DNA from: Styela clava
Taxonomy: Eukaryota; Chordata; Ascidiacea; Stolidobranchia; Styelidae
Reading direction: 5' to 3'
Assembly: GCF_964204865.1 (NCBI RefSeq)
Contig: NC_135255.1
Location: 10,693,135 to 10,757,134, forward strand
DNA length: 64,000 nt
This document shows positions 1 through 63,170 of this stretch, piece after piece (the first letter of the stretch is position 1; every line of letters starts with the position of its first letter). A program made the position numbers and the translations under genes. The notes below the pieces were generated by a model. It worked only from the letters and a program-made list of their open reading frames with translations, did not search any database and was not told the origin of the DNA.

Positions 1-1
1 T

Positions 2-1368
2 AAAATATGGCTGATGGTTCGAGGCAAAAGAGTTGACAAGCAGAAAACAGCAATTATAAAGAATAATTTGAATCCTAATTTCAATGAAAAATTTGTGTTT
101 GCGTCGCCAATGGATCGACTTCGTGAGATACAACTGGAAATCAGTGTTATGGATCGTGATAAAATCGGCCGGAATGAGACGATAGGAAAGGTTTGTATTA
201 TTTTACCTTCTTCCAATAAGGCTGGTCATTTTCGAATTTCCGATGATTTCAGAATCGAATCGCATATTTGTTTTTTCGAATCGAATATTGGATGGAATGG
301 GAGATATGTAATTGTATGTGATTTTTTACTTTAATAGATCCTACAACACACATAAATTGCTGTAAAAACGTAACTTAACACTCAGACAGTTTGCTGAGTG
401 TTCACCCACAATAAAGAACATGTTTCATCAATAATTAACTCGGAACAATAGAGTCTTATGTCAGAATTGCATTTCAAAACATGGCTTGAATAACAAAAAT
501 GAAGAATTCACCTCGATCTTTGTGCCAACAATAAAACAAGCTAGCGACGATTCAAAATTCTAGTCTTAGTCGATTCGAATAAATTATTATTCGATTCCAT
601 ATGCCCAGGCCTATCTCGGAGCTCTAAGGCTAAGAGGGTTGTAAAGGCGATGTGTGAAACGTCAGACATTTCTCAGCTCATATTTTAACGTGGATAAAGC
701 GAATGACCAAACTGTAAATAAGAGAATAAAGTACATTTAGTTTTGATCTGAATTTTTATCTAAAGCTGGTAAATGCCATTTGGATGACAAACGATCCGAA
801 ATATAAATTTCTCGTAAATGCGTGATTCGACAATCGAGCCAAATATAATTTTGTTTGGCTCAAATAGGTCTTCTAGTGCTGCGTGTGCAATGAAGAAAAA
901 ATGACAATTTGACCTGGGACCGAGATATTCTTTCTTATCATATTCTTTTCCAACTTACTTCCAGTGCCAAATCATATCCCAATTCATAAGATTTGTTTGA
1001 TTGAAATAAAGAATGAATAAAAGGTTGTAGGATGTATTCAGTTGGTCAATACCACTTATTTGTTTAACCGATTATAATGGTGTAGTCCGGTAACTTTCGA
1101 GTACCTTATTGCTATTTTGTGTTATATCACAAGAATATTAAACTCATAAAACTGGTTTCACCGAAGAACATATTTGAATCGACTTCGGATCATCGCCGAT
1201 ACGGGTACTAGACTTATCTTTATGGAGAACCGTGTATTATTTTGAGTATTTTATTGATTTTAGATATATTTGGGGACAAAAAGCAACGCTCTGGAGAAAC
1301 GACATTGGAAGGAGATGCTGACAAAAATTCGACAGCCTGTTGAACAATGGCATATTCTAAAAGTTTGA
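2..1368 (+). CDS. Synaptotagmin, 3' part (C-terminal half of C2B domain)
   Basis: Last two coding exons of a synaptotagmin, a vesicle membrane protein that couples calcium to exocytosis; the gene enters from the left edge. Exon 2..190 encodes C2B strands with the polybasic stretch GKRVDKQKTAIIK, then NLNPNFNE and SVMDRDKIGRNETIGK. It ends at a phase-0 donor (AAG|GTTTGT). The intron (191..1263) holds a MITE. Exon 1264..1368 follows an ATTTTAG acceptor and encodes the C2B end, with RHWKEML and the family-typical terminal WHIL, then KV and TGA. The DRDK stretch supplies calcium-loop aspartates. An AATAAA about 130 bases after the stop is a plausible poly(A) signal. By recalled sequence it resembles Syt7/Syt3-like C2B more than Syt4, but paralogue assignment is not secure from half a domain. 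Confidence 0.9.
213..612. repeat. MITE copy 1 (TAAGG-family, hAT-like) in synaptotagmin intron
   Basis: About 390-400 bases, alignable along most of its length with the copy at 43613..44012. Shared landmarks in order are CATTTTCGAAT near the left end, ACACACATAAATTGCTG, a TGCTGAGTGTTCAC-like block, ATGTCAGAA, and ATTCGATTC near the right end. The ends are imperfect inverted repeats (TAAGGCTGGTCATTTTCGAA against the complement of the right end). No clean target duplication remains here, so this copy looks older than the 43.6-kb one. No coding capacity is seen. Confidence 0.7.
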
Positions 1369-3350: not shown

Positions 3351-3442
3351 CTGTGTACCAAGATGGCGCACAACCTGAACTCAGTTTGTGTTCCAGGTTA
3401 GGGTTCGGGTTGTGCGACATCTTGGTGCGCATACTTCGGGAG
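3351..3442. repeat. Short fold-back element, copy 1
   Basis: Roughly 90 bases able to fold into a hairpin: ACCAAGATGGCGCACAACC on the left pairs imperfectly with GGTTGTGCGACATCTTGGT on the right. A second, better-preserved copy lies at 62917..63018, about 60 kb away, sharing the loop text GGTTAGGGTTCGGGTTGTG with few changes. It is a non-coding fold-back MITE. Confidence 0.7.
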
Positions 3443-4107
3443 TACCAAAAAATGTTAATATTTTTTCCCTTACATTTGCACTTTTATCAGTAGAGTGCAA
3501 AACAAAAATCCAGTTTTGATATCATATCATGAGTATATCGCACAAAAACAAGTAGTTGTGAGCATAACGCCACTGCACTTCAAAGAATTATACCCTTCGC
3601 CTCAACTTACTTATTTGCACACGGGTACACTTGTTCAAATCAAGACGCATGGAACAGATTTGATGTGCAAGATCGCATGAGATAAATCAGTGAACTATTT
3701 GTTATTTGTGTTACGTACGTGAGAAGTAGCAGCTAATTTGCATGTTGTCCGAATAACTCTATGCTAGGTTCTTTCATTGTGCTTTGGCTTTGAAAATTGC
3801 GGGGGTTCTCGGTAACTTGCCCATTGGCGTTTGCATAATATTTCACCCATTTAGAATTGTATTAGGTATAAGCTTATAATCTACAACTTTTATTTCATTT
3901 TTAGATAATAATTTGATTGTTATCTAGTGTATTTTCTTAACTAACTCTTTGTGCAAATTATGGCAACCTGTTGTTGGGACAGTCTCGTGTTTGCCAGTAT
4001 TTGGTGGAAGAGCCGTAGTTTTTCTGTTCTAGATTTAGTGTTAACTTGTAGGGAACATAGGATTGTATCTTATGCAGAGATAGTTAGGATTCGAAGTCAT
4101 TAGGTTT

Positions 4108-5806: not shown

Positions 5807-8800
5807 TCATTTATTAAAATTAGGCTTTGTCATGTTCTTTCTGCAGTTAGGACAAGCTCTTGTGTTGACAAGACCCATTTCTGAAACACATCTAAAAAAG
5901 GAGCAAAAAGTCATCGTAAACACAAAAAATAAGACTGTAATATTAGTTGTATATATAAAGGGTGGTGCCATTTCCATAGATCGGTGAATAGCTTATATTG
6001 TTTAAGTTGCTGAGAAAAAAATGAATTCAAATTGAATTCAAGCCATAATTTGCTTACTCACTGAAGTGAAGCGTACTCACTTTAGGTGAAAAATATGTGA
6101 ACAAGGCAACGCCTCCAGTTGTTCGTGTTTTTCTGCAATCGGCTTATCACAAGCTCCGCAATATAACTCCATTTCTTCGAGTAACTTATGGTATTTTATT
6201 GTGCAGTCACGTGCTTCTTGTAAATTGTTTAGACGTTGTTGCGCCACGGCCAGCTCTCCGTAAATGCTCATGCTTTCCATCTAGCGGAAGATAACATAAA
6301 TAATAAAAATCATCATATATATCAATGTATCTTGAAAGTAAAGCATCTTAATTAACCTTTGTCGTTAGTATAAAAAACAGATAAAAATAAAATAAATGAG
6401 TTTTTGCTGAAGTGTAGATCAATATTTAGTGCTGATGTAATGATCACCATTTAATGAATTTAAAAAGGTGCCAACGTTCATCAATTTGAATACTGTTATA
6501 TATAGATTAAACATTATTCCGAGCTTTAACGCAGTATATACTATATATAAAATTCGTTACGCCAAGAGAAACGTTGCACTTACGTTTGCCTTAATTTCTT
6601 GTGATAGTTTAAGAGCATCGTCATATAGTTGGATCGCCTGTAATGATATAGTATTGAAGTGAGAATTGATTGGACCTCTAGTTTCCATAGTATCAGATAT
6701 TGCCTGGGAAACTCTATATGAGATTAATTCATTGAAGTTGGAAGACCTAAAGATTGTACATGGCATGGCTATCCAGGCTAACCTAACACAAACGATTCAT
6801 AACCATATCTGTACTATTTTGTATACTTGAGGTAAAACTATCACGCTGGAATCAAAACTATATATATATATATATATATATATAGAAAAATTGGGGTGTG
6901 CTGAACGCATGAGATCATAAAACCATACGAAAGTAATAAATTATATCATTGTTACAAAACCAATTACCTGCTAAAAAACTGTAAATATCAGAATTATATA
7001 GCATCTAAGAACTTACTGTTCCATAATTTTTAGTCTTTATATGCACTTTGGCTTTGCCAACCAGAACCTTCACTTCACCATAACGATCACCAATTTCTCG
7101 CATCATTGAGCCAGCGGATTCATACCTAGGTAATGCGCGTTCTGGATCTTTCCTTGTTCGATGAATGTCAGCAAAACACAACAAACAATAAGCTTGCGAA
7201 CCTCTGTCACCGCTTTCAATTGCAAACTTCAGAGCTTCCTGACAATAAAATAAAATATTTGAAAAAAATACGTATTAAATTGAAATTGTAGCTTCAACAT
7301 CATGCGATAAAATTCTTATAATCAGATGTCCACCTCACCAGTGTCATACAGAAAACCCTATAAACATTTAAAAATATTATATTCATCATTCATATATTCA
7401 TCATTCTAATTGTGGAAGATTGTACTGCAATATATTTTGTTACTTGACCCATATACAAATATCCTATTCTGACAACTGCGATTTTCCTTGTTTGGAGCGC
7501 TTGTCTGTTTTTTGAAGTCGATTGTGTGAATTCTGTTGCAATTGATTTGGTACCTCACTACAGGACATCGCTTCTTCCAATTTTCCGACTTTTCTGTAAG
7601 CTTCTCCCAAATGTAGTTGAATGAACGTTCTGTTTCGTGGGCTGTCTTTTTCATCCAAAATTTCTGCCGCCTTCAGAGGAAAAAATGTGGCCTGTAAAAA
7701 AATAATTTTGTTGTCATGCTTTGTAAAACTCTAAATCAGTACTACCTAAAGCAAATGAAACATAAACATCAATCGGTATAATGAAAAATACATATTTTTC
7801 TGTTTATTCCAATATTTTATACATAAAAACTTGATAGACTGTGTTCATTGAAAATCGTAGAAAAAATAGTGATCCAATTTAATAATGTTCACAACGAAGC
7901 AATTCATTGATAGAAAAATCTACGTTGAATTATCTTCCATTTCACTTTATATTTGTTTTATCCGCATTTCAAAATGCATGTATTATATTTAATTTCCCAC
8001 CTTTTCATAATCTTTCAGGTTAACATAAAAACGCCCAAGAGCACAACATGACATGCATTCCAAATCGGTGTTTTGTTGAGAACTTGCCAAACTCAAAGAT
8101 CTTTCTAGATCTTCTAAAGCTTTTCTGTGGTTTCCTAAACGAAGTTGTGCACTTCCTCTGCATAGATGGATTTCTCCTGTTATTCGTAACGTTACTTCGC
8201 TGTTGGCTCCTCTACATTTGGCAATGAATGTCAGACTTTTCAAGCAATAATCGACGCTTTTTGAAAATTCTGACAGCCACAAGTTAGCCCTGGAAAATTA
8301 AATGATTGTTTACTACTCTTTTAGGTCTGAAAAGCAAAATACGATACCTAAATTCAGAGAAAAAAATACAAATTCAACAACATATCTTATACTAATTCTG
8401 CCTTTGATAAATTAGAGAAAAATGCAACCTATTTCTCCAATTGAAAACTAGATGAAAAACCGGTCCCCAAATTCTATATGATTATATACTCTCAACATCG
8501 TTTTAAATAAATGAATTTATAGGAAAAATACACGACTATGATGTCAGATTATTGAGTAGATTCTATTGGTGATTCTATAATTAATGATTATATTCATTCG
8601 TTATATTGAAGTAATTATTCATCCAAAGCAAATTGGTCTAATAACCGAAATCCGAAAATCCGGTAAACATCTAACATTGCTAGCAAAAGATTTTCTTTAA
8701 AATCAATCCTAGTTTATCTTTTATCAAAGAAGTAGTTTCGTTCATTCGAGTCGATGCCAGTTTTGTTTTGTCTTACGTGGCGACAAAATGTTCGTTATAT

Positions 8801-9193
8801 AGGCATAGGCTAATGAAAATGAATACGTACTACTTACCTTGCTAAATTTAAATACGAGTCAGCAAGAGTTGTATTGATGCTTACGAGTGATTCTCCACCC
8901 ATAAAGTCCGACTGAATACATTTTGTTTTAATAGCTTGAGCTATTTCGATTTGTTTGACTGATATTTCCAACATTATTCTGTATCTACCCCATCCTTCTA
9001 CAGTTCTGATTGCATATCCAAGCACGTTCCATCTTTCTTTTGGATTGCGAACTTTTCTGCAAATGTCTTTCAGCCAATGTTTTGCTGCTGTCCCATCTCC
9101 ATCATCGATCAGATTTTTCAATTCTTCTTTGTACTGTTTTTCTAATTTTGCATCATTCGGACTTCGACTCTGATGACCGTTATTCTGCCCCAT
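5807..9193 (-). CDS. RAPSN: Rapsyn, complete, seven coding exons
   Basis: Predicted 447-residue rapsyn, the myristoylated scaffold that clusters nicotinic acetylcholine receptors at postsynaptic membranes (vertebrate form 412 residues). Exons (5' to 3'): 9193..8838, 8289..8001, 7691..7554, 7238..7017, 6637..6584, 6280..6081, 5891..5807; all phases agree and total 448 codons. The start at 9193 gives MGQ with Gly2 available for myristoylation, as in known rapsyns. Tetratricopeptide-like helices follow ([56 protein letters not shown]). The C-terminal RING-H2 ligands are C394, C397, C413, H415, H418, C421, C433 and C436 ([29 protein letters not shown]). It lies downstream of a nicotinic receptor subunit on the same strand. 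The N-terminal ~40 residues are longer and more divergent than in vertebrates. Confidence 0.95.
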
Positions 9194-9858
9194 ATCTATA
9201 TTGGAATCTATTTTTATTTTTGCTAGAATTGAATTAAATGAATTTGTTTTATAAAGACCGAAATTCCGGTAAATTGTGAATATAAAAGCTGCATCGAATG
9301 TGCTATTTGAAATTTGAACGGAATTTTCATTGGAAAGCTGTACATACTGTAGCTGCACTATACTGTACACGCAAATCACAAATCTCGTTATTATGAGCTA
9401 CAAACACCCTTTTCCATAACATTTTATCTATTGTAGATTTCTTAAGCATTGTTCGATTTTACTCGTATTTTAGAAATCCATATACGATTTGCTAATAATT
9501 TCATCTGTTTGTCAAATGTTTTATACAGCTGTCATTGTACTAGCCGTAAATAAAAAATATTTACCGGTAACTGGTGCTTACCAACAGCGGTTTAACTCCA
9601 ACTATGACTAATAAACGCACACGTACTTCAGTCAAACGGAATTTCTACTTGAAGGTATCCTATATAAATTGTCGTCACTCTGAGTTTATTCCGCAACCAT
9701 ACTCCCGAGAGATTTAGCCAGTATAGCGGTAGCTCAAAGACAGACAAGAAATATTGTTCGACACTGTTCGTGTTTCTGCTTCGAAGTGAAATGCGGCCGT
9801 GACCCATTATTAATAATGTTAATACCAAAACGATTTCAGATCCATTAACACCTTGGTA
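9194..9858. promoter_or_regulatory. Presumed rapsyn upstream region
   Basis: About 660 bases between the rapsyn start codon (minus strand) and a small plus-strand ORF. In-frame ATG codons upstream of 9193 (the most distal at 9379) would extend the protein, but the Gly2 context argues for 9193. No recognisable core promoter was identified. If the 9859 ORF is real, this would be a divergent promoter region. Confidence 0.25.
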
Positions 9859-10101
9859 ATGACATTCCATGGCGTCAGTAGATTGCATAAGGCGTCATGT
9901 AGGAAGGAAATGTTTCAAAGAAATGTTGTGAACTGTTTCGTTTCATGTAAGAAAGCAAGTATATATGAGAAATTGAGAGTATTCGAACTTTTCAACTTGA
10001 AGGATAAAAGCTCCAAGAAAGTATCCTTTGTTGACACCAACCTTATTGAAGATAAATTTGAAGCTAATATTGATATTGATATCACCGACTCGGAGTCGTG
10101 A
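9859..10101 (+). CDS. Possible small single-exon protein, 80 residues, unknown
   Basis: Not a family I recognise. From ATG at 9859 the frame stays open for 80 codons with protein-like composition: a basic, cysteine-containing N-terminal half (SRLHKASCRKEM, NCFVSCKK), then KLRVFELFNLKDKSSKKVSF, and an acidic tail (EANIDIDITDSES). AATAAA follows within about 90 bases of the stop (GAAATAAATC). It lies in the interval between rapsyn and the nicotinic receptor gene, on the opposite strand. It could be a real small gene, the last exon of an unseen gene, or a chance ORF. Confidence 0.35.
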   Translation: MTFHGVSRLHKASCRKEMFQRNVVNCFVSCKKASIYEKLRVFELFNLKDKSSKKVSFVDTNLIEDKFEANIDIDITDSES

Positions 10102-11407
10102 AAAACCTAATATCTATTCACTGTTTCTGCAATTCCTTGTTCATCTGTAACGAGTATCTTTCGTTAGATATAATTCAATGGTGAAATAAATCAATATTTA
10201 AATAATATAAACATAAAAATCAAAAACTAAATAAGGAATACTATCAGCATGGCTGCTATTCGCATTATATTATTATGCCGTCCATTGCGCCCATCGAATA
10301 TTAAACAACCAAACTAACTATTTATCACTATTTGCAAAGGCTTGTTCCTTGACTGATTTTCAACTTGCCTGTGTCCGATATTCTGCAGCTAACTCTTGCT
10401 TTCCTCTCAACGTTAATCCCTCGTAGGTTGTATCCCTAAGCGGAGAATGTCTTAATTTACCAATTACATCATATACATTCTTACTATCCAAATATTTTCA
10501 TGACGTCATACTAAATTGTTCGATCGCCAGGGGTATTGAAGTTCATAAATGATGAAACATTATTGAACATGTTTTCAGTTTCTAATGGTTTAATGGGGTT
10601 TAGATAAGTGTCAAACACTTTTGAAGGATGAAGAGCTCTATCGCCGAAAACAAATCTGTTTTATGTCAAAGTATATTAAGTAATATTTAACGCATCCCAC
10701 GTTTGTTTATGAAGATTCAAGTTATCAAGTGTGCTATTAAAAAATGTTATCAAGTGATGATTGTAAGATATTCTGGTTTGTGGTATTCTGGTTCTTCCAT
10801 CATTATGAACACTTATGTAAGTCACTTAATTTTCAAGATTGAATAACGAGATTTTGAAATTTCAAATGGAATATTTTTAATAGGTTTATTCACAAACAAT
10901 TGTTAATTTGATAAATATTATATTTTTGATTATCCTGGGTATTCATTAAACACGACTCCAAATTAGTTCAAAATATTACAAAGAAAAATGCTTATTCATT
11001 CAATATTTTTACAGACTCCCCGGGTAAATATAATATATATACAACTTCAAATGCAACCGTATATAAGGCCATTTTCATTTCATATATAAAGCCTAAAGTC
11101 CAAACTACACAGAAACACAATATTTTGCAGTGACCTTGCAAATGTCGAACTTGGCACACGACAGAAAAATGCAAGCAATGCAAGAAAAAACTAAAAATAG
11201 TTAGGTATTTTAGAAGGCACTAGAAGGTCAAGCAAAAAAACCACAGATGTTGCAAAATACTACATAAACATATCACTAACAATCATATAAATTACACTCA
11301 GAATCAAAGTTTCAATTGGATCAAAAGTGCTTAGAGTCAGTGTTTTCAATTGAAAAAGTTTTGAAATATTTTTCCGAGCTTCTCATTCACTTGTAATTAT
11401 TCAATAT
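10102..11407. other. Non-coding interval downstream of the nicotinic receptor gene
   Basis: AT-rich DNA with no exon recognised. TTTATT near 10881 is a minus-strand AATAAA and could end the receptor transcript, whose stop codon is at 11408. Confidence 0.4.
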
Positions 11408-14400
11408 TTAGGTTGTGTGCGCTGGAGGCATTCCGACAGTAAAGAGAGTTGACAATAGGAAGAACAGTATAAAGAAGACGAGACAAAATCTGAAAATATA
11501 TTTCAAGAAGTTTGAATCATTTGTCAGAACCAATGATTTTTTCCATCTGCATAATCCTCTTCAATTTAATAAGTAGACATGATTTATCCTATAAAAGATT
11601 TTTGTAATTTACCTGTCCATAACACGGGCTGCGAATCTCCATTTTACAGCGACAACATCATCTTCTTCCTCGTCTTTCATGCTTTGTACAATGTCATGCA
11701 AGTCTCCACACATTTTGGTTATTTGCCTGAATGAAAAAAATAATCAAGGAATTTGTCATTGTAAACGTTTCACTGATTCCATAACCGTACAATGGTTAAG
11801 TTTCACATACCGTCATCCTATGCCATATGGATAGCTACGTGGTGCTAACTAGCAGTAGTATTGAATTTGAATGTCGACACCGTAAATCTACCAAACGTAG
11901 TTAATTGATTATATTCACATAGTAAATTAAGATCTGTAATTTTTCTAGGTAATACCCAAACTTAAATTGAACAGAAGAAAACAATAGAGCAATGCTTAAA
12001 TACATAGGCACCGAAGCCGAAACGAAGTAGTATCAAATCATTTACAGTACCGGTAGTCTAACCACTAGATTGTTGAATGCGATCACCGAACCACGACTAG
12101 GTGTGTAATTTTTAATTTTGATGAGGTCATCACACAAAACTTGAAAGTGAATAACAAATCACATAGTGCCACAAAATCTTGAAATATATATATATAAATG
12201 TAATACGATTTTAAACCACGGTATATTTCAAAGCAATCGGACCAGTAGTTAACGAGAGAGGCAATTTAAAAAAAAAGAATACTAACAACAGGTCAACAGC
12301 ACAGATAATATAACGACTCATAGGTTCAATTCGTATTCAAAAATGCATAAACAATGTTGGATTCATTTCTTGAGACGATGTCTATTTACAAGCTCAATCG
12401 ACCGATAGGTATGATTATTATAATCTATAAAACATTTTCAGCGATTTCGCAGTAAATACCGACGTCTCAACTAATGCTCTTTTTCATTTAACTAAATGTA
12501 GATTATTCAAAGATTCAATTTTGTTAACTTCTATTTTATTGAGAGTGTCGAATGTCTGTCAACGATTTCGAAATTGAACGTCACAACAAAACAGATTTTG
12601 AGATTCATAATATTTTGAAAATGAATCTGTTGATTAACAGGCCACCATGAAATTGAAAGAGATGTTATCACTTACTTTTCCGAATGCCTCAGCTGCATCG
12701 CCAGCACTGTGTTCGGATCCTTGTTTTGCTGAAAATCATTTTGAAAACTACCAAGCCTTTCGCCCACCTGCGATTTTACATATAAACAAATACTGTAAGA
12801 CATATTCACCAACCTCAATGAGTGAACAGAACTTTTTGTGACCTGATTTGTCCTTTTATGTTTGACTTATGTTGTAGAAAGGTTATCAAAAATATATCGA
12901 AGTATGAATATGCATGAACATAACACAGGTTTATTACGCTTACGAAAATTATCATTAAATGTCACTTTAGAAATGAAATATTTCTACACTATTCTTTTCA
13001 TTGTAATGCACTATCACCACTAGATTTCCTGAATTCCTAGAATTTCATGTTTCAAGACACCTGGAATTAATTAAACCGTGACTAATGTGACTCATTATGT
13101 GTAGAGATTACATTTGAGGTTAGGCCGATGTAATAGGCATGAAAATGATGCATAATCAGCTACCGGAATTATGTAAACATGATCACTGATATGGTGAAAA
13201 ACACAAAAAATAAACCAAAATATTAAGGGAAAATTTCATTAAAAAGTTAATTACGAACGATATTTCCGTGTTCTATGTTTACCTCCCACCCATCGTTGAG
13301 TCGTATACTTTATAAAATTTTATACACAACTCTTGGCTTAGCAGGGCAGTCCTTTTTCCAGTTATATTAAATGAGAAGTTAAAAATATGATAACACACGC
13401 CCTGCCATATAAATATAATAGTTTTATTTTTCTAACCTTCATCAATGGGAGTTCATCAGTCCCGTTCCCCACTTTTTCCATTGTGTCATTTTGCGTTTTT
13501 GTTTTAGGTGGAATTCTCATCAGTAAAATTTTTGGTAAAAATTCTAAGAACACGAGTTCGATCTGAATAACAAAAGAAATATTCATCATTACCTTTATTT
13601 TATCTTGTAATATTTACACTGAAATAGTAAGCTATTGAAATCTTTTCGTTTCAGCAAAGCGTGTATTATATATATACACACTTATGGCTATGGATGCAAA
13701 TTTATACTATTAATTCAGCTAATTCATTGCAACAAGTAAAGTGGCTATACTGTATAATACAGCCGCATAAAAACCCAACATCCTCTGAAGAAAATATCAA
13801 AAAAAAAGTTTAAACACAAAGACAGCTATTAAATAGTTTAATAACTTTTTGTTTTACAACCTACCCAAACTGGCATTCCCTCGCTTGTAGCTGGACTCGT
13901 ATGGTGTAAGTTCATGGATAAAACACTCGTGACAACTGACAGTGTTACCATTATAACACTGAAGAGAAAATATCTTCCTGTGGAAAAATAAGAAGTGAGA
14001 ATGTTAGATGAGTAGTATATAACAAAGACTATTTTTAAAGATTTTTTTATTCAATTAGAGAAGAAGGGAAAGCAGTTTATTCCCGGAACACCTTATTGAA
14101 ACACCTCAATTAATTCAGTAATCTAACTATTTGTTCTTCCGCAGTGAAGCAAAATAATTTATTTTCACTCCGCAGAATATAATGTCATATATATAAATAA
14201 GCAGCAGTAACTGACCCAAATACCAGCAGAATAGTAAACTCATACCCAGTAAAGGAATTTCTCCGGTAGGTGGCATGTTATCCGCTACGATTTGTAAAAA
14301 CACGACCATTGCTAGTAATACGGTGATACCTGTTATAAGTGTTATATAATTGATTAATTATCATTAGTAACATTGCGATCGTAGAAAATATTAATTAAAT

Positions 14401-17400
14401 TAGTTCTGTACACTGAAAAAGACATGATAAGCAACATTCAATGAGATCATTGCGTCTTCATTTAGTTCAGTAACATCGGTTGTAGAATCGCTCTTAAATA
14501 ACTGAATTTACAAAAAAATTTGTATAACGTAGTTTTAAAGTATTATCAACAATATATCACGTGTTTCTTTAATACTAACCCAAAGTCATTCTTTCACCAG
14601 AGTCTGCCGGTAATATAAATATGAGAATTGTCAGAGAGCACACAAGCACACAGGGGAGAATAAGGTTTATTATGTAAAACATAGATCTTCGGCGCATTCT
14701 GACGGTAAATGTTGCATCAACAAATGGATCTGGACAGCACTCGTATTTGACTTTGCTGCGGACGCCTGTCATATCTAAAATAAAAATGCTTCATGAAACT
14801 GAAGCGAATCAACCGGTAGCGCACACCACTTCCTCGTGTATAGTTATTGTACGTACACGATTACTTATTAGGAATATTTCCTCTGACAATAAAATGATAT
14901 TTTCTATTTTGATTTAGCTGTTTTGATCGTAAGATTAAGAATGGACTTATCCAGCAAGTGAATTTTTTTACAACTCAGTCTTTAATATATTGTGTATAAC
15001 AAGAAGACAATATTGGCCTATACGCTTGGCAGACAGATGTGGATTCGTTTCTCACTTTGAAGATTTGTGGGATGAAGTCATCAAAATTAAAATTTGCGCA
15101 CCGTGTGACGGTAGCGAAGATGACTTGTTGTGGTCGGAAGACAACGGCGTACTAACCCAATTAACAACACAAAAAGTGACAAATGCGGGCATGGAGAGTA
15201 TCGGTTTAGCAATATCAAACCAGGATCTTCACACTGAAACCGGTCTGAATTACTTATAAATTAACTTACTAACAAAATCCCATTCACTGCTGTTGTAATA
15301 CGACGAATTATCTGCTAATCCATCGTAGAGGAGATTCAAGTCAATCTAAAGTAAACAACACAATACTGTACATTTTAGAGTTGTAATTTTCTAGAAAATT
15401 GAAGAACAAAAAAAATTATTGTTTATTTAAAAAAGTACACAGGAAGAGCGCTGAATGACATCAGTTAGATCATGACATCACTCAGTAAAAATTTTGGTAG
15501 TTATGTTTGTTTCTCAAATTAATATTCACAGGTTCTAGAACTGCCTTTATAAAGATTTGTTTTTATACAGATTACTTTTGAAATTACTTTAAGCAATGCA
15601 AATATATATACAGCATATGAGTTGCATGATACATATAATCACTGACAGGAAAAGTTGAAAAATCGGAAAAAAAAACGTGAAAACATAAAGAAGCGAAATT
15701 ATTTGAATACAGGAACAACTGAAATAATAAAATTCTAATTAATGGAATATAAAAGAAAACAATACCAACCAAATTTCCATGATGAGTCCATGCTCCAAAC
15801 TTGATATCACAACTTTGCTCATCAAAAGGGAAATTTTGTATGTCAACATCACATGTTGTCTTGAATATTCCTGGTGGTAACCATTCAACAACACCATTTT
15901 CGTATATGATGACGTTGGTGTGCTTCAATTGATCAAATGAATCTGCAGCACTGAAATTTTTATTTTTGCGAACATTTTATTATGCCTATTCATCAAATTC
16001 ATATGGTGCAATCACAGCAACTTTGAAATACGTAAAAATGAAAATTTTAGCGTAGTAATTATATTATTCAATTTGTACCTGTTGTAAACTAATATATCTG
16101 GCTTCCAAACCAGTTTGGAAGGCAATCTAATAGATGTAATGTTCGCATGTTCTTTCGAATCCCATTTTAGTTGTACATCATTCCATGCCTGAAAATAAAA
16201 AAAACTAAACTTTTTTGTTTGCGTAATGTGCTGTTTAATGAGATGTCTAGATTCAATATCGCTGAACAGACTCAAAATTGTGACGTCAACAATAGATTGT
16301 GATTTAATCTTGTTGACAAAAACAATACTTACACATGTCATGTAAATGCTCGTAGTCAGCAGTTGATTTTTTTCATCCTGCAAAATTATAACATTCGGTA
16401 TCATACAGTTTTTACTAACGGGAGAAACGCATGCACAAACTCTGTTTCATTAAAGATAGGCATACTATACCAGGTCAATGATTTGTTGTATAGCCAAAGA
16501 AAAGTTGACCATTACGACATCGTCGTAATTTTCAACAGGTCGAACGGTCGGGTTATAATTCTTCATGAGGTGTGCTACCAATTTCGTTTCTGGAAGAGTT
16601 ACTAATGGATTTGCTGAACATCCAGGAACTGAAAAATATATTTTGGAGTTATTGCCCTGTTTTCCGCCGTATTAAATAATTTAGCAACGTTGCCACTCAA
16701 CATTCAGAAATTCTCGTTAAACATAAAATCACCACGCACTTATTGGTTATTTCGTCGACTGAAAATGGAAGAGAAAAATATTGGAAAGAGATATTACCAA
16801 ATTATCATATGTCTATACACAATCACTATGTAATAAAATATTGTCCAATAAGTACTTTATTGACTGTTTTTTTTTTACGCTTCATTTCGATTTTAGCTTC
16901 ACATTAATTCTTCCTTCAATGTAGTCTGATTATGATTGTCCAGTGTTCATCGAGTCCCCTCCCTATCTATCTGATATGGTACAATCGCGTTAATTGTGAA
17001 TGTTGGCACCTCCCGCATAGCTATAATGACTGGAAAAAATTAGCATTGCAATATTTCGAGGAAAGCATCTAATCCTAAAGAAACACCATTTATCACACCT
17101 TGCTGAAATAAGTCTTGTCACACTAAGGATTTGTGTGTAAACTAAACAATAACTCAACTTGTTATTATCTAACAAGAACAGTGATGCTTTTCGAATAAAG
17201 TGATTTGATTTAAGAAAAGTATTCATCGCATGGCACAACTAGCGCCGTTATATTGTCATAGACTAATTTAGGTTAAGAATAATACTGGGAATATTTAAAA
17301 TGATAAAATATTAACGTTATTTGTGAACGACGTCCGGTCAAAACAAGTTGTCACTAATCGTAGGGCCAGGGTCGTCCAACCTTTTTGGCCGAAGGGCCAC

Positions 17401-20400
17401 ATGTAGTTTACTAATAATTGCGCGGGCCACTTAATATGGTAGTTAAGTTCTAGATTTACTACACTGTCTTCACATTATCCTCACACTCAACAGCGCCATA
17501 GCATTCCCGAGCTCTTCAACGCGACGATAATGGTCTGTCTTGACAGGCTTATTTTTGCAAACACCTCTTGGCACACATTGGCAACCCGAACAACACATTC
17601 CATAACGAATTCTCAATCAGAGAATGTCTTCGATTTCTTCGCGAATAATTCTGCCACCAGGTAGCTCTCTTCCACAACTGACTCCTGGTGCATGAAAGTT
17701 TTTAGAAGACATTATGATAATTTTTTCACCTTATCTTGTCTTATCGCCGAAACATCAAGGATTTTCTGTATGTACGTACCACGCCTAAACACACAGCGTT
17801 GGCAATTAGGCCCCCCCACCAGGTTTGATCAAGGTTGACCAGGTTGGTTAGTGATATATTTGAATGAGAGACCAGGTGATAAATTAGAAGACTATTGTCT
17901 CACAAATCAGATAACGTCATATAGAGCAGTAAAACACTAAGTGTGTAAGCGACTATGGCACCTTTACGTGTCCTTCCAGTTGGTTTCGATTTTCGACTGG
18001 TTTCTGCGCTGGCAGAGCGTATTTCAGGAAAATAAACAAATCGTTTGTATCAAATTTTTGTATACCACATCACTCGAAAAATAGTTTTACTCATTTTTTT
18101 TATTCAATTCCGAAAAACAGAGCGCGGGCCACTCGAAATGCTTCCGCGGGCCATATGCCATATGTGGCCACGGGTTGGACGACCCTGGTTTAGACGGAAC
18201 ACAATAACGAGGTTTTTGGATATTTGGTGTTTCAATAACTAAAAATAAGAAGATTATATGCATTCAATTTTTTTAAATTAGGCATCCCTGCAGTATTTGC
18301 AATAGGGAGGCTATGTTGGGCAGTTGATAAAAACTTTGCGCACCATTTACATGCTTTAGTTGCTCCAAAAACTTTTTATATAGAATTTACAAATAACACA
18401 AAAAATATTCAACTCTACAAGACTAACAAAGTAGACGTACTCAAATTTACAATCTGCATGTGTATAAAAATTTATCTATGAATGGCTAATATTTCAATCA
18501 AACAACGAAATTCAAAACAAAGTTCGAAATTCAGGTTTCAGAATGAATCTTGGGGCAATTATCGTCATCTCACTGTAAAATTTATCCAACTTTCAAATTC
18601 CATGGGTGGTAATGGAGGTTTTGTCAGACATATATTTTTCAACCTATTTAAATAGTGACAGTAATTTTGAATCTTCAATTTTCGTTTATCAGAAATTCCT
18701 TACATATTTTTATTGCGTCATCAACGCATCATGTTATTATCTTGACCACCAGCTGACCATCTATAAAACAACTTCACGTTTTGATTGTCTGCTAATGAAT
18801 ATAGCTTTTACAAACAATTTACCTTTTGTCAATTGTTAGGATATTTCAACAAAGTATCACAAAATCATTTGAAAGTGCTCTGGCATAAACAGAATTGAAA
18901 ACATCAAAGACACTAAAAAATCTCTAAAAATCGTAATTATAACATGGTATGTCTTGAATAGGTGAATTTTATTTTCAAATTATGATTTATTGATCCTGTT
19001 ATATATAATATACGACATTAGAAACGTTAACGATTAGCCTAAAGCTCATATTTCAGTATCAGGTTGTCATGAATTCTACTACTCGAAATAATTTTTTATA
19101 GTTGTGTTACTTATCCTTCTTGAGTCTGTAATTAAGCGCAGAGAAAAAATCACCTGCTCTATGCACTTCTGTTAGTAAATTTGGAGAAATGTTTTCGATC
19201 ATAAGATCTCTAGCGTACATAGAAACTAACGAAGAATTACTGGTCAAAGGTTCAAAGTTCATATAAAAATCTGACCCCACAATCTAGACGAGGCATAATT
19301 CCAAGAAATATGGCTTTCCTCAACAATATCGAAAGTAAACAAAAGGTACATGCGAGATATATGAAGTCATAAATTGCCTAATTAACATTTTCCGCTTGTA
19401 ATAAAAGACGAGCTGCGTAATATCCATTTCCCCTGAAGCATCTTCTACTGTTCGGAATCGTAGATCTTCGAAAAGGCATTGTTTTATTATTGGCCATACA
19501 TGAATCATAAATAAATATAGTTCAACTATGTATGTGGTGAATTAAAAGTGATCTCACTGTTATCGTTTTTTAATCATCAAAATTTGTGTGATCCATACAT
19601 TTTTTTATTAGATTTGGTTTTAAGTTAAAAACTTTTTACATACAAGTTTTAATATTAGATTCTCATCATTTTGTATTCATAAAGTTTTGACTAAATTAGG
19701 GCTGAAAAAACTCGAGATTTTTTCTAATAAGCGAAGATCCATATATTCATAAACTGAAACAGAATCAAAACCGCAAACTCTGACGGCAATAAACATTTTT
19801 TAATGTTATTGAATATCAAGAATTTTAAGGTTTTCATGAGCGGTGATATCCTTTATCTATTGAACCTATTGACAAACTAGACCCAATTAACAAAGCTTGT
19901 CATTGAAACGATATAGTCCCACCCTTTTTGTGTTGTAGTGATTAAAGTATTGTAACAATGAAATAAACTACAATGTATGCTCACAGGTCAGAAACAATAA
20001 AGAACACAATAGCAATTATCGTCAAATATCGAATATACTCAGTATGAATATGTAACTCTGATGTAGTATATTTGAAAGTTTGGTGAAAGTCTTTTCACAA
20101 TTCAGTTCCACATTTACCAAACTCTGGCGCGGTGCAGATAAATTAATAATTTTACTCCAGCCAAAGTTGCGAGAATCGGCATGTTTGTTCACTTCTCTTC
20201 AGATAAGCACAGTCACATCTGGGTTATTTTTTCTACATTCAAGGTATATCTTATCACAAAATGGATTAAAATCCGGAGATTTATTTAGCTCAAATCTGAC
20301 TCATTCAATTTTAACAGATTCTGTAATTTTATGTAAACAACAATGCGTAACACAGGTGCTGGCGGTTAATTTATCTTTTTCATCGCGATATGCTAATTTT

Positions 20401-21151
20401 CGTTCTTGCTTAACAATAAATGGGTTGTCAAAAACAATATCCAGCCTGACACAGGGTAATTGATTTTAGACATTTCGAACTTGTGAACCACTCTCTGAGT
20501 ACATAATAATATGAAATGTAGTAAATTTACTAAAATATGGGCGTAATATTACAAGTGATACTAAGCTAGTACTACTGTAGGATTCATCACCCATAACTGC
20601 TTACTTTAACAAAGTTATCAAAACACAATCACAGGAAAATAGATAAAATGATAATATTTCATATCGTTCATTTTGGGCATCAGACAACACTGAATATCAC
20701 GCATGAATGTACTTACTCCACTGTAATTATCAAGATTTCGAATAAAGGTCTACTAAGTTAGTAAATGTAAATATGCAGAGTAAAATTTTAAACTGTGATG
20801 AAAATTTAAACCCACAACAATATGGCAGCAATTAATTTTGTCAATTTGGAAAGTATCAAACTGACCTATTATTACGCTTATTACGTATTTTCTTTCATAT
20901 TTTCAAACAAATACATGAGGTATCTTACTTGATAATTCTATTTTGTGTTATTAGGAAGTTATAGGTATCATTAGTGAATCTTCACCTGTTACAAAGTTTG
21001 AAATATTTGACGATTGAAATGCACAAGAAAAATAACATAAGTTCTAATTTTCAATGCGATAAAAATGAATTTGAAAAATAGGCTAGGTTTTACTGAACTC
21101 ACCACTGCTAAATACAAATAGAACAAACGCAATTGCCGGAACCATCTTCAT
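11408..21151 (-). CDS. Nicotinic acetylcholine receptor, alpha-type subunit, complete, 13 exons
   Basis: Predicted 474-residue Cys-loop channel subunit. Exons: 21151..21103, 16628..16471, 16377..16333, 16188..16079, 15950..15770, 15345..15270, 14774..14580, 14329..14246, 13977..13865, 13562..13437, 12767..12676, 11726..11613, 11489..11408; phases agree throughout. Signal peptide MKMVPAIAFVLFVFSS. Ligand loop A WKPDILVYN (Y119); Cys-loop C154 and C168 with 13 residues between; loop B FGAW (W175); loop C YECC with the vicinal pair C219-C220 that defines alpha subunits. M1 about 238-260. M2 has E267 (-1', cation selectivity) and L277 (9'). M3 about 301-322. The M3-M4 loop is short, and M4 is encoded by the last exon, ending MPPAHTT. 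Loop D has Tyr81 where many subunits have Trp, and the loop C position after CCPDP is Phe224, not Tyr. Closest by eye to alpha7-like or muscle alpha-like chains. An upstream stop in frame with no earlier ATG supports the start. Confidence 0.95.
14979..15259 (+). pseudogene. Antisense coding-like segment in nicotinic receptor intron 6
   Basis: On the strand opposite the receptor gene, inside its sixth intron, a 90-codon frame opens just after an acceptor-like tract (TTTTTTTACAACTCAG) and ends in TAA. It reads like protein: RRQYWPIRLADRCGF, SHFEDLWDEVIKIKI, CAPCDGSEDDLLWSEDN. Its first ATG falls late (NAGMESIGL), so it cannot be a simple intact gene. It is richer in G+C than the surrounding intron. 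It may be an exon of a nested gene, a transposon-protein remnant, or chance. No family recognised. Confidence 0.3.
17367..18187. mobile_element. 821-bp MITE with 15-base perfect terminal inverted repeats
   Basis: Begins CAGGGTCGTCCAACC and ends with its exact complement GGTTGGACGACCCTG, inside intron 1 of the nicotinic receptor gene. Subterminal text is also mirrored (TTGGCCGAAGGGCCACAT against ATATGTGGCC, with GCGGGCCACT at both ends). CAGGG termini fit the hAT superfamily. I could not find a matching 8-base target duplication, so the flanks have diverged or rearranged. No transposase reading frame seen. The left end of a second copy lies at 63171. Confidence 0.8.
19107..20480 (-). pseudogene. 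Decayed coding sequence in nicotinic receptor intron 1
   Basis: Two stretches on the minus strand read like protein but are interrupted. Segment A (about 20461..20040) stays in one frame except for two TGA codons, with text such as DIVFDNPFIVKQERKLAYRD, FELNKSPDFNPFCDKIYLEC and SRNFGWSKIINLSAPRQSL. Segment B (about 19530..19107) is one frame broken by TGA at 19322 and TAG at 19286, with KQCLFEDLRFRTVEDASGEM, SSLVSMYARDLMIENISPNL and FFSALNYRLKKDK before the TAA. I do not recognise the family. This is most simply one or two pseudogenes or a transposase relic. The TAG at 19286 could instead be a splice acceptor, which would make the tail a real nested exon. Confidence 0.4.
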
Positions 21152-27100: not shown

Positions 27101-29024
27101 AAAATCAAGCCGGTGCGCCATATTGAAAATTTAATAAAAGTCATCTTGGCATCGGTTTCTATTTGTTACTTAACCAGATTGATTTTCCGTAGCCTTAGGG
27201 AGAAAGGAGGCAATTCATTTATGCTCGGTCCAACAGATGCCAAAAGTACTATTGATACTGAGGTTTTAACTTATCTTTGGGATCTGTGTGGTCGAGTGAT
27301 TGTCAAAAGTGAACTACAGTCAAACAAACTTTAGGAATGGTTTTTATCGAAACGTTGGCTACGGTAAGGATGTTCATTTTCGTTTACACTGCATTTAGAA
27401 CGGTTTAGAATAGAAATTTGGTATACTAAAACGAGAAAAAATTTTCTATTGCACAAAGCAGTTCCATTCAAAACAATGGTGCCATGCGAAAGAAACAATC
27501 ATCGCTCGATACCTTTTTCTGAAATTGTCTTACATGATTTCGACAGTTAGCATAAAAAAATATCATTGCATTTTTGCATTTTTATTAAGTATGCATGAGA
27601 ATTAGCAGAATCAGAGTATAGCGTAACCACAATATAATACTTTTCGTTTAGAATGTGACATATTTGATTTGTACCTGACGTTTTCTGACCAGATATTCGT
27701 AACATTGGGAAAAATAAGTCAGCGTTTAGAATGTAGATTTATTCAAGCTGATTGCTGTAAAATATTTTGGCATAAAAGTCCTTCGTTTGAGTTGGCGATT
27801 AGCACAAATATACAAAAGCACCAGGCATTAGCATTCGAATTGTTTATGTAAAATTATTGACAACCTCTTAGAGTTTTTTATTTTATTTCCGGCGAGTGCT
27901 TTCGGCGCTTTCTTCTTACGGTCGATTAGGGAATTTTTTCAAGCCTTTCGCCTTTTACATTTCTTGTGAAATCGTGGTAATCTCAAATAAATTTATCATG
28001 ATTGAAAAATGAGATAGCAAAATAAATACATGATGTAGTAAAAATATAAACATAATCAGTATGCGTCTATTGCCGAATGTGAATATTTCATAGTTAATTA
28101 GGGTCCTACCTCACATGGTAGCCAGATCAGTACATTTAAATATTTGCTTATTGACGTGTTACCGGGAATAGAACAATCATGATATATTACAAATTATTTA
28201 TTCCTAAATAATATGTCTATCTCTCCTTTTTTAATAGCAAGATTTTATATATATCTCAGGTAGTATAGGGTCGACAAATTTGCGAATAAATTATTGACTA
28301 CCCGTCTTACACAGAGGTCACAAGGGATTTTAAGCCTATGACATTTTAACCGCGAGTATTCTGCAAGGAATTTTTAGGCGTAGGCATGCAGGGTAAAAGA
28401 GAACAATTTTATTTAAATAAAGATAATGTTCCATTCCGTTCGCCGAAGAAAAAATATAGATACCTGTAGGCAGATGCTACGTCAGACTGGAAAAAGCCGT
28501 ACTAGGTTGTAAAATTTGTGGGAGTCGGCAAGCATAGTCGATTGGGCTTAAGTAAATTGAGCTTGAACCTTATAAAATGATAAATATTCTGAGAAGTGAT
28601 AGCATGTTAAACCACGAAAGATAAACCACGAGGAGAGTTTTATAATACGGCTACGTTAACTAAAAATATACTTAATGTTCCCGAGTTCAGAACAATGTTG
28701 TATGAGTCTAAAACAGCTCGACAGAATGGGATAACGATAAGCGAAATTCGTAGTTTGTCTTACTATAGTAAAAAAGGGGGAAAACATATTTCCACTGTTT
28801 GCAAGCATCACTAATTGAAACTTATGTGCTTGTGTATGGGTGGTATTCCGTCCAGCATGTTCAATAAAGTTTAATTTTCAGAATTTGGGCAATTAATTTA
28901 ATCGACTAGTCTATATTTTGCACTTAAAATTGAATTATCTTTACAGTGTCCGCCCTCTATATATTTTATATATATTCATAGTTAATTAAAACTTCAATGC
29001 AATTCATAGAAGACATCCCAAAAA
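21152..29024. other. Long stretch with no recognised gene
   Basis: About 7.9 kb between the divergent starts of the nicotinic receptor subunit and the first GPCR. I found no exon with family resemblance on either strand. It presumably contains the promoters of both genes. A roughly 55-base repeat at 23150-23205 resembles 19738-19795 (both contain ATAAACT.AAAC followed by ATCAAAACCGCAA). Confidence 0.4.
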
Positions 29025-32000
29025 ATGTTGAGTTTATCGTTCGAGATAAATACTGCATTGCTCGTGTTGATGTGCCTCGGTCTCTTCATTGCTCTATTCT
29101 TCAATCTACTTTCGGTTTTCACTATACTTAGAAACAAGAGGTTCTGCACCGTGACAAATTTTTATCAAGTCGTAAGTTTTAAATATTTTTCATGTATTTA
29201 TACCAATTTGGTTGTACGTACGATGTTAATGTAGTCTATATTTCAAAAAAGAAATATCGCTGTTCCCATAGTGTGAAATCAACTGCCATACGTCTTAGAA
29301 TGTTCGAATGTGATTTCAGTGCAATCTTGCGATCGCTAAAATGCATTATATATCTAAAATGTGTTTAATTAATGGGATTAATTCGTTTTTCCATTTATTT
29401 GTAAACTAAACTTCGGGTTAATCTAAATGAGAAATATTCAACAGACCAATGACCATCAACTGTTAATAACTAGAATTGTCTAATTACATCTCGTGTTCAC
29501 TAATTAACAAACAAAATCGATTCCAAGGCATTGTTGATTAAAAATGGAGAAGGGTCCGTGCACGTGCATAAATTCCAAAGGGAAAGTCAGAATAATTGTG
29601 TGCAACCTTGTTGCACATGCCATATATTACGCATGAAATATAAAAAAGAAATAAATACAATAAAAATAATAAAACAATTTTATGGTATATGTATAGAAAA
29701 ACATACTTTGCCAAGAACATGTATTAAAAGCATTTGACCAAAACACAGGAGAGCAAGCCACAAATACATGGATACGAAGATCATATGTCTCATGTGGTCA
29801 TCGATATGTCAGATAAATTTTTAAAGAATTGTACTGAATGCTAAAATGCTTCTATGGAATTGTAACATTGTTAAATTTTTTGAATCGATTCACAAAAAAT
29901 AGTCATTCTTAAACTCATTTTATTCACTAGGAATTGCGCGATAAATTTTGACCATTTTTTTTTATTTTCTTTGCCTTTTAAATATAAAAAAAACACTCAA
30001 TTGTATAGAAAATCAAATTAAAAATTTGTCAGAAATATCTATAAATGAGTTGTATTTATTTCCTTCGTTTCCCCGTCGGTGAATATGGCGGTATACCAAT
30101 AAAGTTGCCGTTCTATGGCATAGATTCGCTTGTAATTAATTTAATTGCATTTTCAGTAAAATTGATCAAATCTTTTTGTTGAATATTACTTTTTCAGAGC
30201 AACTGTTTGTTAATATCAGCCATCATTTGCATATCCGGATGGATGTTTCCTCTTTACGTTATTTCAAGTAATCACGTGACATATTCAATGCGACTTTTTA
30301 TGAACAAAGTTATCATATCAACAAACGCTTCCGTAACAGGACATGATGTTATGAACGCAATCGACAGGTAATAATTATATTTTGATAATATTCATATTTT
30401 GGACAACAAATAACTTCGAATTTTCTTGAAATTAAAGATCAAATGAATGAAATAAATTAAGTTTCAGATAGTTCTCGAATTGAATTGCAAATATAAAGTT
30501 GTTGAATTCGACTTAATAATATAAATATATATCGAAACTAGGATTTTTAGAAGGGAAGATCTCTATTTAAACTTTGTTTTAATGTCTGTTGTACTTTTCA
30601 GTCATCGGCCCTATTTCCTATTTTTTTAATCTAATTTAAATACTATAGTGTGATCTATTTATATAATATTTAGACAATAAATAAGGAAAGAGATTTGTTA
30701 TTGCCCTGTGGAGATTATTGTTGGTTCTCGAATCAATTGTCTTGAACTATGGTAAATAGCGTTTTCAATCAAAGTTATTGGTAATACAGAAAAAACATTG
30801 AACTGGATGAACTGTCGCATTATTTTCAACTTTCTCCAGGGAATTTCAAGAGCGAAGGTTGTTATTGGAGCTTAATGTCGCAGTTGTTTATTCATATTTT
30901 CCGGTTTATTTTTGACTGACATTCTTCCAATTTATTTATTTAAGTACCTTGAAAACAACAAGATACTTTAAATTCAAAACCGTCATTTATTTTTAGAGGC
31001 TTGTTAACATTCGTTACATAATATGTTGATGATTTTAAATAATATCTAAAAAACTCTTTTCCAAACTCGCTTTCAAAAGCCAGAACCTAATAATAATTTT
31101 GTCGCTCAGTGTGTTACACTCGATATATAAATATCTGTAATAGTTTAGTATATTTCATTATGATTTAGAACGTTATACTAACTGTCTCTAAACAATATAG
31201 GCACGTGAAATTGCAGCACACGAATCGCTGTGGGCAATATCAACTGGGCGGATAATTCCAGATGGCAAATGTACTTGATTGGCAAAACATGTTTTGAGTG
31301 ATACGACTTTCATGCTGAAGATGTTTTGTCTTGCCGAAATCAGATTTTTTTGAAAAATAAAAAACAGACTAGATTTTGTCTCTCATAAAAAATAAAATAT
31401 GTACACAATTTTTTTGATTTCACCAGATATAATGCACTTTCAAGGCCATTGAAGATGAGAGCAATAGCTGGAAAGAAAAGATGCATCGTAGTTATAGGAC
31501 TTATATGGATATTCAGTTCAGCCCTTTGTGTTCCAAACGCAATGCGATTATTCGGAGAAATTAAAAACAACAATTCTACCAGGTGAGAATATTAATAAAA
31601 AACACTCTTTGTAATAATTTATGTGATTCTTAATCGGATAAAGACGTTTAGTCATAAAGAGATATGTATATCATTTAATCATTGTGAATGATACGCAAAC
31701 ATGAAAAAAAAACGTTCACGTAGATGTTATCTTGTTAGCCACCTGAAGTGCTTTTTCAAGCGTTAGTATATCATATACATATTGCCATTAATTTATGGCA
31801 ATATTCAAATTCAGCTTTGGAATTACATGTAAAGTTAGGATTGATTTATGATTTAAATGTCGCTTTTAATATATTCAGATTGGAATATGGGGGGAGCAAT
31901 TTGTCAACAATACCATTTGAATCGATAACAACGTCAACAATTAACGGTGAGAGAAAATAAAGTATTGGCATATCATAATCGTACTGTTGGTTACTGTTCA

Positions 32001-34036
32001 CGGTGACAAATGTGTGCAAAAGATTTGAAGGATTCTTCGCAGACACAGACTGGGTCAAGTTTAAACTGTTTAGTGCAGGCTTACTCCACCACGAAGTCCA
32101 AGTCGCCAGCTCCTTTCCCGTAATATACTAGTAATTCCCTATGACAATGTCGTCAAATTGACTTTATTTTTTCCCGCGATAAAAGCAATTCATTTTTACT
32201 AAAATATACCTTAGTTGTAGAAATGAGAGTGAAGTTGAGAATTTAAGCAACATGTGAAGAACTGGAAATATAACACATGACCCATGAACTTGAGAATATG
32301 CTAAGGCCATGTCCTCGTAGTCACAAAATTGCAACTTGACTTTTAATTTATGCTAGAATTCATTTTATTCTTATATTTCATGCAGATTCAATGATGAAAA
32401 CCAATTTGATCACACAACGTCTTGTTTCGGAACCATTTGAATGGTGGCCTATAATTATATTCGTAACACTTTTCTTAACTCCCTTTACAATTAATCTTAC
32501 GTTGTTTATATTAACGGTAAAGCGTCTTCGGCACTCAGTGAAAGATATTTATAAACTACCAGATGGTAATGGAATACATTGTAAAGAGATAACTTCAAAA
32601 ATCACAAGACAAACGAATAAGTTAAGAAGGTATAGTCAAAGAGCACCACTGAATCGACAAAGAACTCTTCGTTTCTCTGCTCCTCCTAATTGTGTTAAAT
32701 CTCCAGCGGATGATCAAACCATACCTACAAAAAAATCTACGTATAGGGAACGTGCACTTAGCGAACCTAACGGCCGAGCCACACTTCAACACAGATTATA
32801 TTCTATGGTGTTTCCGTCCATTTCATTTGTTGCCGCGGTTCCCTTAAATCAGGGTGAGCGTCGAAGTTCCGCACCAGGAATCATTTCTATGAGAGTTACT
32901 CAAGACAGAGTGAAACCGGTTGTAGAGTCAAAATTATCCGTCGATAGCGGAGTATCAACGATATCCGGAACAGCAACAACCGCCAGTGATGACGAAAGTC
33001 AACAAATACAAGCAGCGAAGCATCCTAGAAACAGAAATGGCGTTGTTCCTACTTGGCTATGGAGAAATAGAATAAAAGCAGTTCAGAATCTTGGTGAGTG
33101 TGTATTTTTACGTACTGCTGTCGTCATTATATCGTTCTAAGCCAAATTATGAAGCTCAAAATTGCTCATAAAAATGAACAAATGTTTATGCGAATGATCC
33201 ATGTACATATCACTAATAATGTGCTAAAAATATCATTGGATTGAAGATATATTCAATTATTTTGGCTAATTTTGTTACAGCGTTTGCATTGGCGATGTTC
33301 TGCGTTGAATGGTTACCATATCATATTCTGCTACTGCTTCAAGGATGTTGTGAGGATGAAAATAAGTAAGCCTTTAAAACTTTATTTGGAATATCGTTTT
33401 CAAATCATAGACTCATTTTTAAATAAACTCTTAAAGGACAGCAACCGGTAAGCGCTCAGTTGATATCATGTTATTGACAACACAAGATTGTTATCATACC
33501 TTTACTTCGAATAAGACTAGACAATCAGTCACTGATTTTATTGTTGCAAACATCTGCGTTTAATCGATACAATTTCGATTGAATTCGTTTTGAGTATTGA
33601 TTAAAGTTTGTCACTGAATTTGTTTCGTAAATTTGCACAATTTTTTAAAGTGCGTTAAGCGTGTTTGTATATAATATGCATCAAACTAAATAAATGAATG
33701 GAAAATGTATCTATAATATATATTTTCAGAAGCTTCAGAACAGAAAACGACTGGATTTCGCTTTCACAATATATCAACGGATTCTTCCTTGCATTAGTTG
33801 CGTTTACAAATCCAGTTTTACACTGTGTCTGTTCTGCATCATTCAGGGAGAGTTTTATGGCAAACATGAGACGGTTGCTCAGTTGTGGGCTTCTCAAATA
33901 TCCGGAAGATTTACAGAATAGTAGACGTCGCAGAAATTCTACATTACCATATTCTACTTCTAGATTTACATCCATGCATAGTCAAACTTTTACAACAAAA
34001 AATATAATATACGATTTATCTAAAACCGCAAGGTAA
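29025..34036 (+). CDS. Atypical rhodopsin-class (class A) GPCR, seven exons
   Basis: Predicted 546-residue seven-helix receptor. Exons: 29025..29171, 30198..30367, 31427..31582, 31879..31946, 32386..33093, 33281..33365, 33730..34036; phases agree. The N-terminus is very short: TM1 starts near residue 9. TM3 ends in a proper DRY (105-107) split across exons 2 and 3, followed by NALSRPLK. TM4 has IGLIWIF, TM5 FLTPFTINLTLF, TM6 FCVEWLPYH, TM7 NPVLH. The third intracellular loop is about 190 residues, rich in Ser, Thr and basic residues. Several class A hallmarks are missing: no Asp2.50 in TM2 (LLISAIICISGWMFP), no Cys3.25, and His for the NPxxY Tyr. An in-frame TAG just upstream supports the start. 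An alternative 3' exon may exist (37082..37181). Ligand unknown; peptide-type is a weak guess. Confidence 0.85.
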
Positions 34037-40300: not shown

Positions 40301-40605
40301 ACCAGATGTATCCTTATGACGCAGATGAACGAGAAAAAATTTATAACGAATTTAAAAAATATATTATCCCGGCAGATGAAGCAGAATGGGTGGGACTTAC
40401 TCTTGAACAAGCAATGTGGAAACAATGGTACGAAGAAAAACAATCTGGAGCTCATGATTCTGTTCCATTATTAGATATTTATACACAAGAACTGAAAGAA
40501 AAATTAAAAATCGAGGGCTCTGACGTTGATGGAGGTAAAGGAGAGCCAGAGACACCAAGTGACAGTGTCGTTATTTTTAATGCTCCTCAAAAGGCTAAAA
40601 TTTAG
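37392..40605 (+). CDS. MRPL28: Mitochondrial large-subunit ribosomal protein L28 (bL28m), complete, six exons
   Basis: Predicted 302-residue protein of the mitochondrial 39S ribosomal subunit. Exons: 37392..37399, 37495..37614, 38275..38366, 38535..38689, 39409..39561, 40225..40605; phases agree. The first coding exon is just ATG CCC AG. Family landmarks recalled from the human protein are LWGGEG, then RTLDLIDAAYGFDHYILKTP, LCSNLGGQLKRDMLL, and AEWVGLTLEQA near the C-terminus. Relative to vertebrates (about 256 residues) it has an extra segment of about 45 residues before LWGGEG (EIQSAARVEARYTKEVLEG). The tail is acidic then Ser/Pro-rich. The tiny first exon is inferred from phase and from the human start Met-Pro, so the exact start is less certain than the rest. 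Confidence 0.93.
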
Positions 40606-63018: not shown

Positions 63019-63170
63019 CACCGAATTTTGATTCCTTGAGTCATTTTGACTGCTGAACAGACTGGTGCTCTAGACTCAATCCAATGAACGAATCTTGATT
63101 CCACTGTTTTGTTATCGTCATTTGCGATCGATGGAAATTTGCCGACAATCCGACAAGGTTCATCTAAAGC

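Follow-up and report, generated by a model that had tools for sequence, protein, structure and literature searches.

The closest described systems come from vertebrates and from the tunicate Ciona. In Ciona larvae the acetylcholine receptors (AChRs) consist of alpha-1, B2/4 and BGDE3 (PMC12646802). Agrin and Lrp4 are required for AChRA1 clusters in Ciona tail muscle, and Rapsyn is expressed in the developing larval tail muscle, the latter being stated there from another paper (PMC12445529). For a CHRNA7 ortholog of Ciona, enrichment in a neuron-like cluster is reported (PMC13078634), and vertebrate rapsyn is described as not localised at ganglionic synapses (PMC8196675). A tunicate gene is reported as the nearest to the vertebrate beta-1/delta/epsilon/gamma genes, of which amphioxus is described as having no close relatives (PMC6354393). 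We analysed a window, meaning the whole stretch of 64,000 nt at G000:C6:10693135-10757134 of the Styela clava assembly (376.6 Mb in 379 contigs; 0 N in the window), in which the rapsyn (RAPSN) gene directly adjoins a nicotinic acetylcholine receptor (nAChR) subunit gene. Its sequence assigns this receptor to the alpha-7 branch; none of the muscle-type subunit genes found in the genome is linked to rapsyn. The two neighbours are probably separately transcribed genes that came to lie side by side by coincidence, through rearrangement in this lineage.

Both gene models are predictions read on the minus strand, and all the introns used are GT-AG. The receptor gene (11408..21151) lies upstream and rapsyn (5807..9193) follows it head to tail on the same strand, with a spacer of 2214 bp (9194..11407) between the receptor stop and the rapsyn ATG. 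The initial annotation had described two complete genes, of 474 and 447 codons, in this order and with a gap of 2.2 kb. The spliced models agree with it; its limit 5807 marks the rapsyn stop and its limit 21151 the receptor ATG. The identities it gave to the two genes are likewise confirmed by the Pfam receptor domains and by the Rapsyn_N, TPR and RING matches described below.

The ortholog of rapsyn is encoded by seven coding exons (9193-8838, 8289-8001, 7691-7554, 7238-7017, 6637-6584, 6280-6081 and 5891-5807), running from an ATG at 9193 to a stop ending at 5807, with a product of 447 aa. Its N-terminus, MGQNNGHQ, carries an N-terminal glycine and matches the N-myristoylation pattern PS00008. 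Rapsyn_N (PF10579) scored 36 bits against a cut-off of 23, several TPR families were above their cut-offs, and a C-terminal RING-H2 pattern at residues 394-436 coincided with a zf-RING_2 match of 29.1 bits (cut-off 27.3). When a Rapsyn_N profile was searched against the genome it gave a single place, in the window, so that search offered no rapsyn paralogs. No rapsyn chain was among the 32 PDB matches obtained at E 0.001.

The receptor gene has 13 coding exons (21151-21103, 16628-16471, 16377-16333, 16188-16079, 15950-15770, 15345-15270, 14774-14580, 14329-14246, 13977-13865, 13562-13437, 12767-12676, 11726-11613 and 11489-11408), from an ATG at 21151 to a stop ending at 11408, and a product of 474 aa. 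With an alternative donor of exon 8 the frame would gain 10 codons; the initial annotation had counted the 474-codon form. Intron 1 is 4474 bp long (16629..21102), the remaining 11 introns being 93-949 bp, and it contains an element of 821 bp (17367..18187, strand not assigned) whose 15-bp inverted ends are perfect and which resembles a decayed hAT-type transposon. The product matched Neur_chan_LBD (PF02931) with 214.7 bits and Neur_chan_memb (PF02932) with 159.7 bits, and has a Cys-loop from C154 to C168 with 13 residues between the cysteines. In loop C there is an adjacent cysteine pair (YECC at 217-220), which bears out the earlier description of the subunit as alpha-type.

For the assignment of the receptor to a branch we used a PDB search and a tree. 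In the search the best match was alpha-7 (364 bits), followed by alpha-6 (350), alpha-4 (343) and alpha-1 (319). The tree was rooted on 5-HT3A, and its rows from this genome were joined exon pieces rather than full gene models. Six of the human rows are provisional sequences, human alpha-1 was checked and found exact, and human alpha-7 was taken from the PDB search. Loci L017, L023, L024 and L025, with less than 150 summed bits to every nAChR or 5HT3 reference, were dropped ahead of the tree. The window receptor, the locus L020 and human alpha-7 formed a three-row group (support 96/93). Inside this group the window receptor paired with L020 (80/68), and its pairing with human alpha-7 alone was not rejected (p 0.134). 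The joined pieces of L020 themselves gave 294 bits to alpha-7, 269 to alpha-4 and 264 to alpha-1 in the PDB search. We also considered the receptor as a muscle alpha-1 (CHRNA1) subunit; holding it with human alpha-1 and the locus L018 made the log-likelihood 36.3 worse, and this placement was rejected (approximately unbiased test, p 0.0017).

To place the other subunit genes, a ligand-binding-domain profile was searched against the genome and gave at least 36 exon matches, 3 of them in the window receptor gene; 16 stretches (loci L010-L025) were fetched to cover the remaining 33. A transmembrane-domain profile gave at least 31 exon matches. Among the matches listed, all of these were in the window or within or a few kb from fetched loci, except one at C16:20114976, and contig C6, which carries the window, showed no new place. 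The extra transmembrane-domain match (C16:20114976-20115134), outside the fetched loci, may belong to a further nAChR gene. The nicotinic branch of the tree held ten rows from this genome, namely the window gene, L010-L016, L018 and L020, while L019, L021 and L022 fell outside it. The genome therefore has at least 10 nAChR-type genes (nine fetched loci and the window gene), a lower bound since only the best candidates were scored.

Among these, L018 paired with human alpha-1 (100/100), and in the PDB search its joined pieces scored higher against alpha-1 (330 bits) than against alpha-3 (293) or alpha-7 (195). L010 grouped with human beta-2 (99/96), L014-L016 with human beta-1 and delta (100/99), L012 and L013 with human alpha-4 (96/94), and L011 with human alpha-9 (97/97). 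A single rapsyn, together with single alpha-1-like and beta-2-like genes and a branch of beta-1/delta type, would be in keeping with a tunicate. The alpha-1-like gene maps to C3:10.24 Mb, those of beta-1/delta type map to C8:9.38, C9:12.17 and C9:15.13 Mb, and the beta-2-like gene to C16:10.06 Mb, whereas rapsyn maps to C6:10.70 Mb. Hence the muscle-type subunit genes found are on contigs other than that of rapsyn. The initial annotation had taken the adjoining receptor for the known client of rapsyn; it belongs instead to the alpha-7 branch, and the alpha-1 ortholog is on a different contig. Since the Ciona larval receptors are made of alpha-1, B2/4 and BGDE3 (PMC12646802), the receptor adjoining rapsyn would not be the muscle client.

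The next gene past rapsyn, downstream and convergent with it, is synaptotagmin-7. Its 3′ end lies in the window (1..1368, plus strand; C2 domain, 56 bits) and its body upstream, in L026/L027; the last piece, at 1276-1368, ends with TKSNALEKRHWKEMLTKIRQPVEQWHILKV and the stop. The pieced C2A-C2B region gave 336 bits to SYT7 versus 251 to SYT1. On the other side, the gene nearest the receptor that was recognised by eye lies upstream of it and consists of pieces of a rhodopsin-type G-protein-coupled receptor (GPCR) on the plus strand (28982..34033; frames of at least 48 codons). Its piece at 31389-31583 matched 7tm_1 with E 1.3e-6 and 28.5 bits, slightly below the cut-off of 30.5, and the pieces at 29010-29231, 32340-33137 (a long open stretch) and 33220-33366 had no Pfam match.

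We consider coincidental, lineage-specific adjacency the best reading, given a receptor of the alpha-7 branch and muscle-type subunit genes that were found in other parts of the genome. The receptor and rapsyn would then be two ordinary, intact genes with separate transcription, for which we infer separate promoters. Rapsyn would be a membrane-anchored TPR/RING-H2 scaffold, most likely clustering muscle nicotinic receptors whose genes lie at other places in the genome, and the alpha-7-branch subunit would most likely be capable of assembling into homopentameric, ligand-gated cation channels of neurons. Their adjacency would have arisen by rearrangement in this lineage. An unlikely alternative is a lineage-specific functional pair, with muscle or neuron enhancers common to both genes and with rapsyn as the scaffold of the alpha-7-type receptor, for example in motor neurons or in siphon or body-wall muscle. 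The same-strand adjacency over a 2.2-kb spacer would suit such a pair, as would the third gene in the row, SYT7, which is also synaptic; the unlinked muscle-type subunit genes do not suit it. The printed data, which concern Ciona and not the present species, point to different tissues for rapsyn (tail muscle, PMC12445529) and the alpha-7-type gene (a neuron-like cluster, PMC13078634), and this also argues against the pair. Quite unlikely, in our view, is a co-regulated synaptic module beside synaptotagmin-7, with rapsyn as the anchor of a fast homomeric receptor of the alpha-7 type. A single polycistronic (operon) transcript resolved by trans-splicing is very improbable, even with both genes head to tail on one strand. 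Tunicate operons have much shorter spacing between their genes; measured against their very short spacers, 2214 bp led us to reject operon membership, in agreement with the initial annotation, which had called the gap too large. Moreover, the spacer holds candidate polyadenylation signals. On its transcribed strand AATAAA at 10890 and ATTAAA at 10881 form a candidate signal for the receptor, and there are five such hexamers in the spacer; they are weak evidence because such hexamers are common in A/T-rich DNA.

Several observations weigh against coincidental adjacency of rapsyn and an alpha-7-type gene. In the PDB search of the receptor alpha-7 was ahead of alpha-6 by just 14 bits, and joining the receptor to the whole heteromeric branch was not rejected (p 0.083). 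The chance of an nAChR-type gene lying directly beside the single rapsyn gene is about 0.10-0.17% (at least 10 nAChR genes; 12,000-20,000 genes assumed), a value that applies to a pair named in advance, the actual pair having been chosen afterwards among many possible related neighbours. Human RAPSN adjoins CELF1, and with CELF in the CHRNA7 paralogon this would be a faint hint of older linkage. CELF genes are given near CHRNA7 in paralogon 1 (PMC6354393).

The CELF genes, near both genes in human on this account, would favour a linkage of RAPSN with a CHRNA7-type gene that goes back to ancestral deuterostomes or chordates and was retained here but lost in vertebrates. So would the neighbours, since SYT7 is at human 11q12.2 (PMC9393329) and RAPSN is listed on human chromosome 11, at 11p13-q1 (PMC6390566). 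With both on one human chromosome, an old neighbourhood may have been preserved here in part, and rapsyn may keep SYT7 as an old neighbour. This match is weak because, going by the gene share of human chromosome 11, a neighbour drawn at random would also belong to it in perhaps 6% of cases. Against such linkage, CHRNA7/8/11 are assigned to a paralogon whose members include human 15 and a split 9/8/5/18 one, and the excerpt of PMC6354393, which does not give all members, names no chromosome 11. The evidence thus leans towards the receptor, rather than rapsyn, as the newcomer, and away from an ancestral RAPSN-CHRNA7 cluster. We regard ancestral linkage as unlikely. An ancestral cluster had been one of the two origins proposed in the initial annotation; it finds little support, with human 15 in the CHRNA7/8/11 paralogon and RAPSN listed on human 11. 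The lineage-specific pairing fits the evidence better, but the shared regulation proposed with it is putative, and the few printed expression data point to different tissues. As a whole, the earlier interpretation is partly supported.

Other features were observed in the window and its flanks. At 59641-61185 (plus strand) a long open frame matches rhodopsin-type GPCRs (7tm_1, 104 bits), and ahead of it, at 58711-59400 (plus), there is an open frame of 230 residues whose start is signal-like and which matched nothing in Pfam. Two long open frames at 40114-40602 and 41185-41553 (plus) resemble exons of a gene; the opposite-strand frame at 41295-41708 (minus) had no Pfam match. A 98-nt dispersed repeat is present at 3352-3449 and 62928-63025, the two copies being 88% identical, and similar stretches were seen by eye in flanking loci. 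About 1-10 kb to the right of the window, in L028, several short-chain dehydrogenase-like pieces were recognised by eye, which could form a small tandem array or be pseudogenes.

As it stands, the locus offers a well-defined local gene order together with an initial map of those receptor subunit genes that were recognised in the assembly. If rapsyn did anchor a homomeric alpha-7-type receptor, this would be a role in which it is not established at the neuronal synapses of vertebrates. Should the pair turn out to be conserved and co-expressed, an alpha-7-type receptor would be suggested as an early chordate partner of rapsyn, and the pair would be a ready system for testing rapsyn outside muscle. 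No mention of a RAPSN-nAChR adjacency was found in the open-licence literature, in the excerpts available, which is not proof of its absence from print.

Compared with known systems, the rapsyn of this locus has the same domain layout as vertebrate RAPSN, with 41% identity to the human protein (171/414 aligned columns, from residue 36 onward; provisional human sequence). The receptors that accompany RAPSN in vertebrates are the muscle subunits (CHRNA1, B1, D, E/G), whereas here it is an alpha-7-branch receptor that adjoins rapsyn. The human genes are on two chromosomes, RAPSN on 11 according to PMC6390566 and CHRNA7 on 15 according to PMC6354393, while here they are adjacent. For the Ciona genes AChRA1, B2-4 and BGDE3, the genes of the same branches in this genome are the alpha-1 gene L018, the beta-2-like L010 and the beta-1/delta-like L014-L016. 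The vertebrate CHRNA5-CHRNA3-CHRNB4 cluster (PMC6354393) resembles this locus in grouping genes of one signalling system; it is, however, a cluster of receptor subunits, and here a receptor gene lies beside an unrelated scaffold gene.

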